NCBI GenBank assembly: GCA_004000155.1 | Contig: RCSS01000287.1 | Location: forward strand, 1-11,415 | From: Tubulinosema ratisbonensis | Lineage: Eukaryota > Microsporidia > Tubulinosematidae | Length of the DNA stretch: 11,415 nucleotides | Reading direction: 5' to 3' | In this document: positions 2,770 through 7,332 of the stretch, in pieces | Layout: each line of letters starts with the position of its first letter | Position numbering within the stretch: position 1 is the stretch's first letter | Program-made: the position numbers and the translations under genes | Notes under the pieces: model-generated | Told to the model about the DNA's origin: nothing | The model's database searches: none | What the model saw: only the letters and a program-made list of their open reading frames with translations

Positions 2770-3311
2770 ATGGCTAGTCATTGATTAAGGCCCATCAATA
2801 AGATAACGGTAAAAGGAACCATTTTCGTTTCCTAACCTACAAGAGCAAGTATATGATTTAAGAAATGCAAGATGTTTTCAGAAATAGACTTAGAGAGCGG
2901 ATATAATGAGATAAAGATAGCCGAAGAAGACATACCTAAAATTTTCTTTCTTATTCTAGGGCAACAATATGAATTCCTTAGTTTGCTCTTGGGATTATCG
3001 AATGCTCCTCGAACATTCCAAAGAGCTATGATTAATTTACTCGGACATTTAAAATACGTGAAAATTTTTTAGATGATATTTTAGTACATTCGGTAAGCGA
3101 AAAAGAACATCTTACACATCTTAGGAAGATATTTTTAATTTTTAAAAATAATAAAATATCAATAAATTGGGACAAAAGTAAATTCTTTAAAAAATCAGTC
3201 AATTATTTAGGTATGGAAATATCCGAAAAAGGAATCAAAGCAGATGAAACATCTATTAAAAAACTTAATAATATCAACGTATCCCCTAGAACTCTAAAAG
3301 AATTAAGATAA
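2770..3311 (+). pseudogene. Retrotransposon reverse transcriptase fragment
   Basis: Pieces in several frames spell the reverse transcriptase fingers and palm: RPINKITVKGT near 2790, then PNLQEQVYDLRNARCF, then FSEIDLESGYNEIKI with the first catalytic Asp, and SLLLGLSNAPRTFQRAM. The frame stops at 3070-3072. Sliding one base in the T6 run at 3065-3070 gives FLDDILVHS, the catalytic DD box. This second frame then stays open to a stop at 3309-3311, passing NYLGMEISEKGIKADE, the usual end of the thumb. The longest intact piece is the open frame 2872-3072. Confidence 0.85.
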
Positions 3312-3715: not shown

Positions 3716-4597
3716 ATGTTCATCTTTATCAAAAATATCTCCATGTTAACTTCTATTTGTCAAAAAGGTGTACAAGCATTGTCATTAACTCAACAAAATT
3801 TACTTGGTAATCCGTTAAGAAATATTGCTAGCCTTTTCCCTTGTTTGCAACAATATCCTTGTATTCAGCAATTACTTGCAAGAACAGCCAATACTCCTTT
3901 TTCTTTACCTTTGTTCCAAGGATGTTTAGATGAACTTAATAAGATTATTGATTCTAAAGAAGCTGTACAAACTTTACCTAAGCAACCCAGCAAACTTGAT
4001 AAAATCATTCATGAAGTGTCGCTTGGAAATGTAGTTATGAAAGAACTTTTTGATTATATAAAGAATGCTGTTCCAATCAAATCAACTGATCCAGCAGTTC
4101 CTCAGCCAATTGATCCAGCAGTTCCTCAGCCAATTGATACAACAGTTTCTAAACCAATTGATACAACTGATTCAATTCAACCAACTACAAATGATACTAA
4201 TTTTGATAAAATAATTGATAAATTAGATGCCTTAGAAAAAAAACTTGATAACATCGATCCTTCAGTTTTAGATTCTTTATTAAAATTCCAATCAACAACC
4301 GAAGAAAAACTTAAAACAATGGAAGAAATTCAAGAAAGAGAATATTATGAAAATCAAGAAAGATCTGACAAAATGAATAAACTTTTACAAGACATTAGTG
4401 ATCAGGTTAAAGAAAACACCAAATCACTGGATAAAAACAGAGCAGACATTAACCGAAATGGCTCTATTTTGAGTGATTTTGAGTCTCAAATAGACCTTTT
4501 GAATAAAGAGGTTAGCGAACTTAAAAATAAGATTGATAAAACTAAGGATGAGATTGAGAATTTGAAGAAAGGAACTGGAATAGGTGGTGGTAATTGA
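3716..4597 (+). CDS. Unrecognised 293-residue coiled-coil protein with tandem octapeptides
   Basis: I do not recognise this protein. It is intact from ATG to TGA and its codon use is balanced, so it is very likely expressed. The first 70 residues are hydrophobic with four Cys (15, 43, 49, 70) and none later. Residues 125-156 are four 8-residue repeats, two identical DPAVPQPI then DTTVSKPI and DTTDSIQP. From about 165 to 285 it is a charged, Lys/Glu-rich coiled coil, ending in a Gly-rich tail. The start is uncertain: the first ATG gives MFIFIKNIS, and Met10 (base 3743) is an alternative. A weak signal peptide ending near VQA (19-21) is possible. Its 5' edge is only about 45 bases from the retrotransposon relic. 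A structural spore-wall or polar-tube role would fit the Cys, repeats and coiled coil, but that is a guess. Confidence 0.82.
   Translation: MFIFIKNISMLTSICQKGVQALSLTQQNLLGNPLRNIASLFPCLQQYPCIQQLLARTANTPFSLPLFQGCLDELNKIIDSKEAVQTLPKQPSKLDKIIHEVSLGNVVMKELFDYIKNAVPIKSTDPAVPQPIDPAVPQPIDTTVSKPIDTTDSIQPTTNDTNFDKIIDKLDALEKKLDNIDPSVLDSLLKFQSTTEEKLKTMEEIQEREYYENQERSDKMNKLLQDISDQVKENTKSLDKNRADINRNGSILSDFESQIDLLNKEVSELKNKIDKTKDEIENLKKGTGIGGGN
4088..4183 (+). repeat. Four 24-bp tandem coding repeats
   Basis: Units start at 4088, 4112, 4136 and 4160. The first two are identical at the base level, the third is diverged and the fourth is only partly recognisable. Each encodes eight residues starting with Asp and mostly ending in Pro-Ile. 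The identical pair suggests recent slippage, and unit number may vary between isolates. Confidence 0.9.
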
Positions 4598-5130: not shown

Positions 5131-5142
5131 TTAAATATTTAA
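5131..5142. repeat. Left target-site duplication of the first SINE-like copy
   Basis: TTAAATATTTAA here matches TTAAATATACAA at 5364-5375 in 10 of 12 positions. The two 12-mers abut the poly-T and the other end of the 221-bp insertion exactly. Confidence 0.6.
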
Positions 5143-5363
5143 TTTTTTTTTATTGACTAGGGATGGGAAATTCATACGAAGATCTTTTCGCTATACCTTC
5201 TTTACAAGAATATTTATACCTAGTCAACGAAAACATACGGTAAAAAAGGTTTTCATACATAGGTATAGCTCAAGATACTGCGAGCTTTCACCCGCTAAAA
5301 CCCACCCCCGTACACTTTATTGACTGCCTAAGTCTACCTTACCTTGCAGGTTTTGGTTACAGG
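5143..5363 (-). mobile_element. SINE-like A-tailed retroposon, copy 1
   Basis: Read on the minus strand, the unit begins CCTGTAACCAAAACC at 5363 and ends with nine A at 5151-5143. It is about 88% identical over its whole length (hand alignment) to the plus-strand unit at 6467-6686, with one patch of difference around its middle. Both copies share the same two ends and the same tail. It has no inverted ends of its own and no coding capacity. I could not find convincing pol III A and B boxes or a clear parent RNA (tRNA, 5S, SRP). Equal length, A tail and flanking duplication indicate target-primed retroposition, so a SINE or a processed RNA copy. Confidence 0.7.
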
Positions 5364-5375
5364 TTAAATATACAA
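5364..5375. repeat. Right target-site duplication of the first SINE-like copy
   Basis: TTAAATATACAA directly follows the 5' end of the minus-strand unit and pairs with 5131-5142, two mismatches in twelve. Confidence 0.6.
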
Positions 5376-5652
5376 TATTCAGTTAATATCTATCCAAATA
5401 GAAAAATATAATAAAAAAATTTATTGATGAGAAATTTATTGATTTTAAGCACATTATTATTTTCTTTCTCATCAAATTATCAATATTTTATAAAATATAT
5501 TTGAATAAAAAAATTTATAAATTTTGTCTAAAATATAAATATTGAACATTATTATTATTTTTAAATTTAAAAAAAAAGTATCTAAAGAAACAGCATAGTC
5601 TAAAAAAGAGAACCTAATAAATTAAAAAATTTAAATTTGTTTTTTAACTTAA
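5376..5652. other. AT-rich stretch, perhaps a relic transposon end
   Basis: There is no gene. Near its right side, 5586-5600 reads AAGAAACAGCATAGT, close to the outer end of the neighbouring mariner (AAGAAATAGCATATA), and like that end it follows a run TTAAATTTAAAAAAAAA. This may be the decayed right end of a second element of the same family lying just left of the intact left end. Confidence 0.35.
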
Positions 5653-5667
5653 TATATGCTATTTCTT
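5653..5667 (+). repeat. Left terminal inverted repeat of the mariner-like element
   Basis: TATATGCTATTTCTT is the exact reverse complement of 7333-7347. Weaker inverted similarity continues inward for about 100-150 bases on each side, with the left side carrying an extra T-rich segment. Confidence 0.8.
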
Positions 5668-5924
5668 AATCATTATCAACATTTTTTCAATCTATTTTCA
5701 ATTTTTATTTTTTTTTTTGATTTCAGCACATAAGATTTCAATTTTAACATTTTCTTATTAAATTCAAATTTTATTTTTTAAATTCAATATTTCATTTTTA
5801 ATTCAACATTTATTTAAAAATAAAAGAGAAAAAATTCTATTTATTGGCTTTAAAAATAAAATGATAAAAAATACTTATTATATTAAATTCCTTTTATATT
5901 ATAAAAATACTTTTTTTGGTTTTT

Positions 5925-6346
5925 ATGGAAGGAAATAACCAAAAAGAATCTACAACCCAAAAAATTTATGACAACGTAAAAAAAGAAAAAAGGCTCAGCT
6001 TAAGGTTAGTAAACGTACAGGGACAAACAATTAAAGAGACTGTTCGAGCGACTGTAATTAATTATAACACTGCAAGATCAATAATCCTGAAAATGACAGG
6101 GAAGGAATAGTTGAGCAAAAATATAAAGAAGAAAAGCCAAGAACTAAACTGACTAATAATTTTGTTAAACAAGTTAAAAGAATTTCAAGTATTAATCCAC
6201 AAAAAACTCATAAAGAAGTTAAACAAAAAAAAGATGAAGATTATGATGTTTCACTGTCAACCGTAGATAGATAATTGAAACATCTTGAAATCACATTAAA
6301 ACAAACAAATTAAGAATTAGACAGAAACGCACCAGATAAAATATAA
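5925..6346 (+). pseudogene. Transposase N-terminal DNA-binding region, broken
   Basis: From ATG 5925 the frame reads MEGNNQKESTTQKIYDNVKK and stops at 6108-6110. A shifted frame overlapping it goes on with EEKPRTKLTNNFVKQV, SSINPQKTHKEVK and VSLSTVDR, then an in-frame TAA (6272) and LKHLEITLK, another TAA (6311) and ELDRNAPDKI. This layout, two helix-turn-helix parts with a basic linker and then an L-x-x-L-x-I-T-L-K segment, is that of Tc1/mariner and IS630-type transposases. The in-frame TAA stops probably arose by point mutation. Confidence 0.75.
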
Positions 6347-6450
6347 CAAAGAAAAAATATTAGTTGTGGTTTATAATTTTTTAGGAGATTAATTAAAAGC
6401 AGTATTTAATGATAAACTTTATTTAATTTAAATATATCGAAAAGTCAAAG

Positions 6451-6466
6451 AATATCAGAAAGAGGG
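6451..6466. repeat. Left target-site duplication of the second SINE-like copy
   Basis: AATATCAGAAAGAGGG is repeated without mismatch at 6687-6702. The two copies flank the 220-bp unit exactly. Removing one copy with the unit restores the phase of the transposase frame, so the duplication was made when the unit inserted. Confidence 0.92.
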
Positions 6467-6686
6467 CCTGTAACCAAGGCCTCCAAGGTAAGTTAGACTT
6501 AGGCAGTCAATAGAGTGCACGGGGTGGGTTTTAGCGGGTGAAAGGCTCGCAGTATCTTGAGCTATACCTAAGTATGGGGTACATATTTTACCGTATGTTT
6601 CCGTCGATTAGGTATTAATATTCTTATAAAGAAGGTATAGCGAAAAGATCTTCGTATGGATTTCCCATCCCTAGGCAACAAAAAAA
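6467..6686 (+). mobile_element. SINE-like A-tailed retroposon, copy 2, inside the transposase
   Basis: The unit starts CCTGTAACCAAGGCC and ends CCCTAGGCAAC followed by A9 (6680-6688, the last As shared with the duplication). It is the same family as the minus-strand copy at 5143-5363 and has the same ends. GC content is clearly above its surroundings. A near-palindrome CGAAAAGATCTTCG sits near its 3' end and is kept in both copies. The perfect 16-bp duplication shows this copy is younger than the decay of the first one's flanks, and younger than the mariner it interrupts. Confidence 0.82.
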
Positions 6687-6702
6687 AATATCAGAAAGAG
6701 GG
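6687..6702. repeat. Right target-site duplication of the second SINE-like copy
   Basis: Exact repeat of 6451-6466; the first two As may belong to the tail, so the duplication is 14-16 bp. Its length and the A tail are unlike the TA duplication of mariner-type DNA transposons. Confidence 0.92.
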
Positions 6703-7332
6703 TTGCTTTTTAAGTGATAACCCCAACAATAAAATAAAAATCTATTTCTTTAATAGCTAATATATTATGTGAGTCTATGTGTCTTTGTGAAACTATTTCT
6801 AATACAACTGTACTGCCAATGTTTTTACTGAATATTTTTAAGAATTATGCAACTATTTAAAAATATCTTACATGAAGGTAAAGCAATTATTATATTAGAC
6901 AATGCTAAGATTTATAAAGAAAGTGATGTAGAAAGCTAACACAGCGTATAAATTACGAGTATCATTTTTTATATTCTTATTATTTTATGCTTAACTTCAT
7001 TGAAAACGTTTTCTCAAAAGTCAAAAATGAAATTCTAAACAGATTAAGAAATAATTAAAAAAGGTTGTTATCAAAAGTTATGTTAGAAGAGGCATATAAC
7101 ATTACAAACACAATTGTGGTGGATACTTTAGATTAATCATAAGAGAATTTACTAACTGTGAAGTTAAACTACCATACTCTTATAAAAAATTTTATTGATT
7201 TAGTTGTAAATTTTTATATTGAATTTCATGATCAATATTTATTCTATAAATTAAATGTGGAATTTAAAAAACAAAATATTGAATTTGAAAAGTAAAATGT
7301 TAAAATTTAAAAAAAAAATGTTGAAATTTACC

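Follow-up and report, generated by a model that had tools for sequence, protein, structure and literature searches.

The window, i.e. the whole stretch of 11,415 bp of Tubulinosema ratisbonensis DNA analysed here, carries two copies of a dispersed repeat family which very probably (probability about 0.88) consists of non-autonomous, SINE-like retroposons spread by target-primed reverse transcription. This reading had been proposed in a preliminary description of the two units, and it is now supported by many copies with differing flanks, by A tails and by target duplications. Other copies do exist, and their flanks carry duplications. As the full-length copies have a fixed 5' end with duplications there, they do not represent the terminal part of a longer element with coding sequence. 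The copies, tails, duplications, empty sites and 5' truncation lead us to state that the family works like a SINE; strict membership of the class with a Pol III head is not claimed. The features of the window that bear on the family are as follows.

5131-5142, no strand assigned: possible target duplication of copy A (10 of 12 bases match 5364-5375; not distinguishable from chance)
5143-5363, minus strand: SINE-like unit copy A, full length; its 9-A tail is a T run on the plus strand
5364-5375, no strand assigned: possible target duplication of copy A, other side (10 of 12 bases match 5131-5142)
5925-7180, plus strand: stretch with a decayed DDE_3 (Tc1/mariner-like) transposon into which copy B is inserted; a relative (L097 on C207) has the site uninterrupted
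6451-6466, plus strand: left target-site duplication of copy B, AATATCAGAAAGAGGG, perfect 16-bp repeat
6467-6686, plus strand: SINE-like unit copy B, full length, with a 3' A tail
6680-6688, plus strand: A run of copy B, the last two A being common with the target duplication
6687-6702, plus strand: right target-site duplication of copy B, AATATCAGAAAGAGGG, perfect 16-bp repeat

The two units had been described as 220-221 bp long, about 88% alike and opposite in orientation. All of this was confirmed, with 89% identity in a search of the window's own genome, and a repeat search recovered the two copies as an inverted pair whose arms are 109 and 110 nt long. The A9 end ascribed to each unit was found as well, since a run of 9 A closes both copies, each on its own sense strand. 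Direct repeats had been claimed on the flanks of both. The perfect 16-bp repeat of copy B stands, with a local alignment score of 16, where only 4 of 812 cross-paired controls reach 12. The 12-bp repeat of copy A does not, since its score of 8.5 is weak and within chance; a score of at least 8 is reached by 124 of the 812 control pairs, so this repeat alone proves nothing.

The genome searched was that of the window itself (G000; 4,116,903 bases in 236 contigs). It turned out that a 27-mer from the 3' part of the unit has 151 places in the 4.1 Mb when up to 3 mismatches are allowed (81 forward, 70 reverse) and the reversed pattern has none, which excludes chance as the source of the units' recurrence. 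A 27-mer from the 5' part occurs at 84 places genome-wide (control 0). An alignment search of the genome, in which 40 of 278 candidates were scored, gave at least 42 matches. Profile searches of 69 kb around the reverse-transcriptase matches gave 9 copies or fragments (10 bins, one counted twice), including the stretch behind the LINE of contig C19 discussed below; extrapolation from these 69 kb would lead to roughly 500 copies, from a small sample chosen near other transposons. The exact unit pattern had no match in the viral_contigs and genome_contigs collections, neither of which is meant to hold microsporidia.

We aligned 31 copies, i.e. 30 loci of the genome alignment search (copy B among them) and copy A. 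The consensus is 221 nt long including 8 terminal A, and full-length copies have a fixed start point and end at about A8-9. As expected of a SINE, the unit is short (about 221 bp), non-coding, dispersed and present in high copy number (the 151 places), and it has an A-rich 3' tail, counted as 7-10 A in 29 of the 31 copies, where some of the A may belong to the target. The two exceptions are L022 (0 A; the match stopped before an A8 run) and L027 (3 A; a T interrupts the run). The GC content is 43% in the core and 52% in the first third of the unit, against 21% in the flanks. Since no T run in the consensus is longer than 4, the unit, as judged from its sequence, has no strong internal terminator. 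Divergence from the consensus is 2.4-6.1% (mean 4.4%), so none of the 31 aligned copies is brand new. Besides, much older, lower-scoring copies were found in the same loci by profile search, and they have a somewhat different common consensus near unit positions 110-165 (alignment read by eye). At C158:3155-3518 and at L016, SINE-like copies stand in direct succession, which would fit insertion into the A tail of an older copy.

Target-site duplications of variable length, another feature of SINEs, were found around the copies. When the flanks were matched without gaps, 10 of the 31 full-length copies scored 11 or more, compared with none of 930 cross-pairs, in which left and right flanks were taken from different copies. 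By local alignment of 29 copies (L007 and L022 were left out, as their match starts or ends inside the unit), the score is at least 10 in 12 of 29 versus 22 of 812 cross-pairs, and below 8, within chance, in 11 of 29. Among the 12 copies scoring at least 10, the duplication ends exactly at the first base of the unit in 8 and at most 4 bases from it in 4. The 22 best-scored copies (12 full-length and 10 truncated) have duplications of 11-18 bp, with a median of 15. The first bases of the duplication are often A, which is in part a product of the method, as the alignment extends into the A tail.

Two empty sites are consistent with precise insertion, with moderate gains. The first belongs to L021, a young copy nested inside an older one. 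When its flanks were joined with one duplication, a profile of older copies (positions 51-206, L021 not among the members) gave 67.7 bits, compared with 47.1 for the left flank alone and at most 54.2 with 28 other right flanks; with the young-copy profile the gain is small (32.7 versus controls of up to 32.0). The second is the site of copy B. In L097, the relative of the DDE_3 transposon (DDE_3 match at E 2e-5, below the cut-off of the family), the target is present once and uninterrupted. Under strict alignment across the joined site the score is 159.0. The unaltered window scores 150.5, and 29 other left flanks reach 148.5 at most (mean also 148.5). L097 matches 46 bases to the left of the insertion site, beyond which the left sides differ, and under lax alignment the joined flanks score 276.0, less than the 285.5 of the window with the unit in place.

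A large part of the listed copies appear to lack their 5' end. Among the best 100 of the 151 3' places, 33 could be paired with a 5' place lying 120-180 bases upstream, and 67 could not. This pairing test misses 2 of 26 known copies, and at least 3 of the 67 unpaired places are full or nearly full length (C37:452, C48:21982 and C86:239), so that roughly 60% of these best 100 places look 5'-truncated. We inspected 20 loci: all mismatch-free unpaired places except C37:452 (18 of 19), and 2 with one mismatch. It was found that 19 of them start at scattered unit positions from 42 to 163 (9 of the 20 at position 140 or later), while L114 is full length but diverged. Their duplication score is at least 10 in 10 of 20 versus 2 of 380 cross-pairs, and in these 10 the duplication ends at most 5 bases from the start of the profile match in 6, 8-12 bases into the match in 3 and 7 bases before it in 1. 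Heavy 5' truncation is typical of LINEs according to passages of a review (PMC3747384). In five copies (L060, L066, L027, L010 and L104) the start falls near unit positions 112-119, where the predicted fold of the consensus has the foot of a hairpin; reverse transcription may have tended to stop there, or these copies may represent an old short subfamily.

We also searched 17 upstream flanks (10 of the copies L099-L118, 6 of older copies, and the LINE 3' region) for a second family with another head and the same 3' end. Nothing was found in them at E 1e-3 with masking. Three pairs appeared unmasked at E 1e-4: L060/L102 (E 6e-5) and L008/L118 (E 2e-5) are AT-rich, and the similarity of L104/L108 (77%, 109 bp, E 3e-18) falls outside the L104 duplication. 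We read the last pair as a shared target repeat, both truncated copies probably lying in relatives of another repeat; no tRNA gene was found there.

On the SINE-like reading, a LINE-type endonuclease/reverse transcriptase, provided in trans, would copy a short RNA of about 213 nt plus a short A run at a chromosomal nick, starting at the 3' end of the RNA. The product would be inserted with a target duplication of 11-18 bp, and the enzyme would often stop early and leave 5'-truncated copies. In this scheme we infer the RNA intermediate, the provision of the enzyme in trans, and the transcription of the unit, whether by Pol III or by some other polymerase.

That the unit needs a LINE-type reverse transcriptase had been noted before, and LINE-type stretches are indeed present in the genome; for the matching 3' end that such an element might have, we have a candidate only. 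There are 27 reverse-transcriptase matches in the genome, most of which look like the LTR-element type. In the window, 2854-3221 contains RVT_1 fragments of a decayed retroelement, probably of LTR type as we read it. The LINE on C19 (L065; about 12128-9275, minus strand) consists of an endonuclease-like stretch followed by the reverse transcriptase in two further open stretches, and it is frame-broken between them. The endonuclease-like stretch has Pfam matches at E 4e-5 and 1e-4, neither of which reaches its curated cut-off, and no match in PDB; it has none elsewhere in the assembly either, which makes this the only LINE copy carrying one. For the reverse transcriptase, the closest PDB entries are L1 ORF2p and R2 proteins (human L1 ORF2p at E 7e-11), and 7 protein relatives were found, the named ones being from Rhizopus at 27-32% and one named only reverse transcriptase.

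About 600 bases behind the last codon of this LINE, on the same strand, there is a stretch which ends in A8 and aligns to unit positions 140-221 with a score of 32, where 300 shuffles reach at most 22. Profile matches of the stretch cover positions 163-220 (E 8e-4), 161-219 (E 7e-5) and 146-191 (E 6e-5). This is suggestive of a 3' end common to the unit and the LINE, seen in one degenerate LINE copy, and the C19 LINE is the best candidate helper, for which we would put the odds slightly short of even. An even chance is given to the view that the stretch is a SINE copy in its own right, truncated at the 5' side, and that another LINE is the true helper. Truncated copies of that size are common, as shown by the 9 of 20 starting at position 140 or later. 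No duplication ties the tail to the start of the LINE either, as the best score around the LINE with its tail is 8 and is reached by 36 of 100 simulated stretches. In addition, the two other LINE-type reverse-transcriptase remnants lack a comparable tail in the stretches examined: that on C157 has a SINE fragment on the other strand, and that on C201 a full-length old SINE copy about 1 kb behind on the same strand. However, no duplication was found at the break of the stretch, where the best score is 5 and the simulated mean 7.1, in contrast to the clear duplication in 10 of the 20 inspected copies, and the position of the stretch on the same strand, about 600 bases behind the last LINE codon, also speaks against an independent copy. 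Another candidate duplication of the C19 LINE, matching at 14 of 15 bases, was rejected, as it lies inside the LINE 3' region and 7 of 100 simulated 500-bp stretches reach it.

The unit also needs an RNA parent, as the preliminary description had pointed out, and here the search by Rfam, tRNA alignment and an A/B-box test returned none. The window has no tRNA gene and no Rfam family at gathering score, and permissive settings on the window region and L005, with a library including 5S rRNA, gave weak matches only, far below gathering scores. Aligned to the 30 tRNA hits of the genome, the consensus scores 15 at best (shuffled consensus: mean 13.4, maximum 20). In its first 150 nt the best pair of A and B boxes reaches -5.4 bits, and 89% of 300 shuffles do better; the matrices came from the same 30 tRNA hits and are slightly weaker for a box probably misplaced in 2 tRNAs (gaps 35 and 36). 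Hence the tRNA- or 5S-derived head with internal Pol III promoter of a typical SINE was not recognised in the unit. A likeness of the 5' part to tRNA-Leu/tRNA-Ala, seen by eye, fails both the tRNA alignment and the A/B-box matrix test. The 5' CCTGTAACC of the unit has what we take to be a resemblance to an SRP motif. The unit has no SRP match in Rfam, whose Fungi_SRP and Metazoa_SRP models may not fit the lineage, and with these two models no SRP RNA gene was found in the whole genome at E 10.

The consensus folds well, with only 1 of 200 shuffles as good (z -3.6; the window copies have z -2.1 and -1.8), which suggests a structured source RNA. By covariation, RNAalifold on 40 copies shows almost no conserved structure (4 pairs); in the centroid fold of the consensus, 17 pairs are changed on both sides, where the shuffled mean is 8.1 and slid controls give 13-18. 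Such a fold, together with a GC-rich core in GC-poor flanks, is RNA-gene-like and would suit retropseudogenes of one host non-coding RNA gene. In that case LINE machinery would have copied a housekeeping RNA of this lineage again and again, and the copies would be dead on arrival, with no promoter of their own. The lack of recognised internal Pol III boxes and the sparse shared variants (3 columns with a second state in at least 6 of the 31 young copies) would also agree with it. Nevertheless, we consider this origin rather unlikely: the different consensus shared by the old copies at about 110-165 implies that the source changed with time, as in SINE subfamilies, no Rfam family exceeds chance, and no untailed parent copy is present among the 31 aligned copies.

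Shortened derivatives of autonomous elements are also known, such as RIME and NARTc, which derive from ingi-type elements. That our unit is likewise a shortened LINE with the LINE's own 5' and 3' ends is improbable: its 3' part does resemble the stretch behind the C19 LINE beyond all 300 shuffles, but unit positions 1-140 score only 12 (sense) and 13 (antisense) against that LINE, where 60 shuffles have a mean of 13.2 and a maximum of 18. A MITE, i.e. a short DNA transposon, would also be short, non-coding and dispersed, but the possibility is negligible, as the consensus ends lack terminal inverted repeats, the duplications vary over 11-18 bp in place of one fixed length, and the copies have a 3' A tail and are truncated at the 5' side only.

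Among known systems, the family described here as SINE-like resembles AfuSINE2 and AfuSINE3 of Aspergillus fumigatus, which, in the sections of PMC5063351 used here, are short and non-autonomous with short target duplications (AfuSINE2 140-493 bp, duplications of 4-14 bp; AfuSINE3 259-343 bp). They have tRNA- or 5S-related heads and low copy numbers, whereas in our unit no such head was detected and the 3' 27-mer occurs at the 151 places. Entamoeba SINEs are similar by description, in that they belong to a protist parasite with LINEs in the same genome and have many incomplete copies (excerpts of PMC2657916; Ed_SINE2 of Entamoeba dispar has 53 complete of 189 copies); our unit differs with its length of about 220 bp and its A8-9 end. 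In the 'stringent' 3'-recognition pairs covered in part of PMC3747384, the 3' end of the SINE may be shared with the LINE. The short, uniform tail of our unit is reminiscent of them, although the possible shared end here comes from one degenerate LINE copy.

The unit had also been thought to be undescribed in microsporidia, which holds for the open-licence papers searched, apart from one table line. The repeat table of Nosema bombycis, in the portion of PMC3614468 consulted, lists under the same class label a 'SINE' of 28,669 bp (0.18%) with no sequence or description, in what is likewise a microsporidian. By title and abstract start, no described microsporidian SINE family was found among the open-licence papers listed, and by word count the word SINE is absent from the main texts of PMC12449221, PMC13174016, PMC4202319 and PMC12558613. 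The type of machinery needed does exist in the phylum, according to passages reporting four non-LTR families in Anncaliia algerae (PMC4202319) and Dong-R4, L1 and RTE LINEs in Microsporidia sp. MB (PMC13174016). The microsporidian repeat reports consulted here name LTR, DNA and LINE elements.

A more far-reaching interpretation is that this is the first described microsporidian SINE family, with a head from a structured RNA outside tRNA, 5S and 7SL, and that it parasitises a LINE of the same genome through the shared 3' end. We regard this combination as possible but doubtful. If true, it would mean a SINE of a new head class, active long enough to form subfamilies, in a highly reduced eukaryotic group. 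Microsporidian genomes are textbook cases of reduction, and well over 100 copies with clear insertion scars indicate that target-primed retroposition has long been at work in one of them. As the insertions are directional and datable by divergence, they could serve as markers for strains and sibling species. The family may also help to study RNA selection by a LINE enzyme under the conditions of a minimal cell, and its head without known parent raises the question which RNA was captured.

The host had been taken for a microsporidian from the look of the sequence, and this agrees with the MCM8 gene at the window start, whose likeness to microsporidian proteins identifies it as such: it shares 74% identity with an unnamed protein and 46-48% with proteins of Vairimorpha necatrix, Nosema granulosis and Encephalitozoon hellem. 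The window also contains, at 3716-4597, an open frame of 293 aa whose Pfam matches are weak and coiled-coil-like; three 24-bp repeats lie at 4083-4154.
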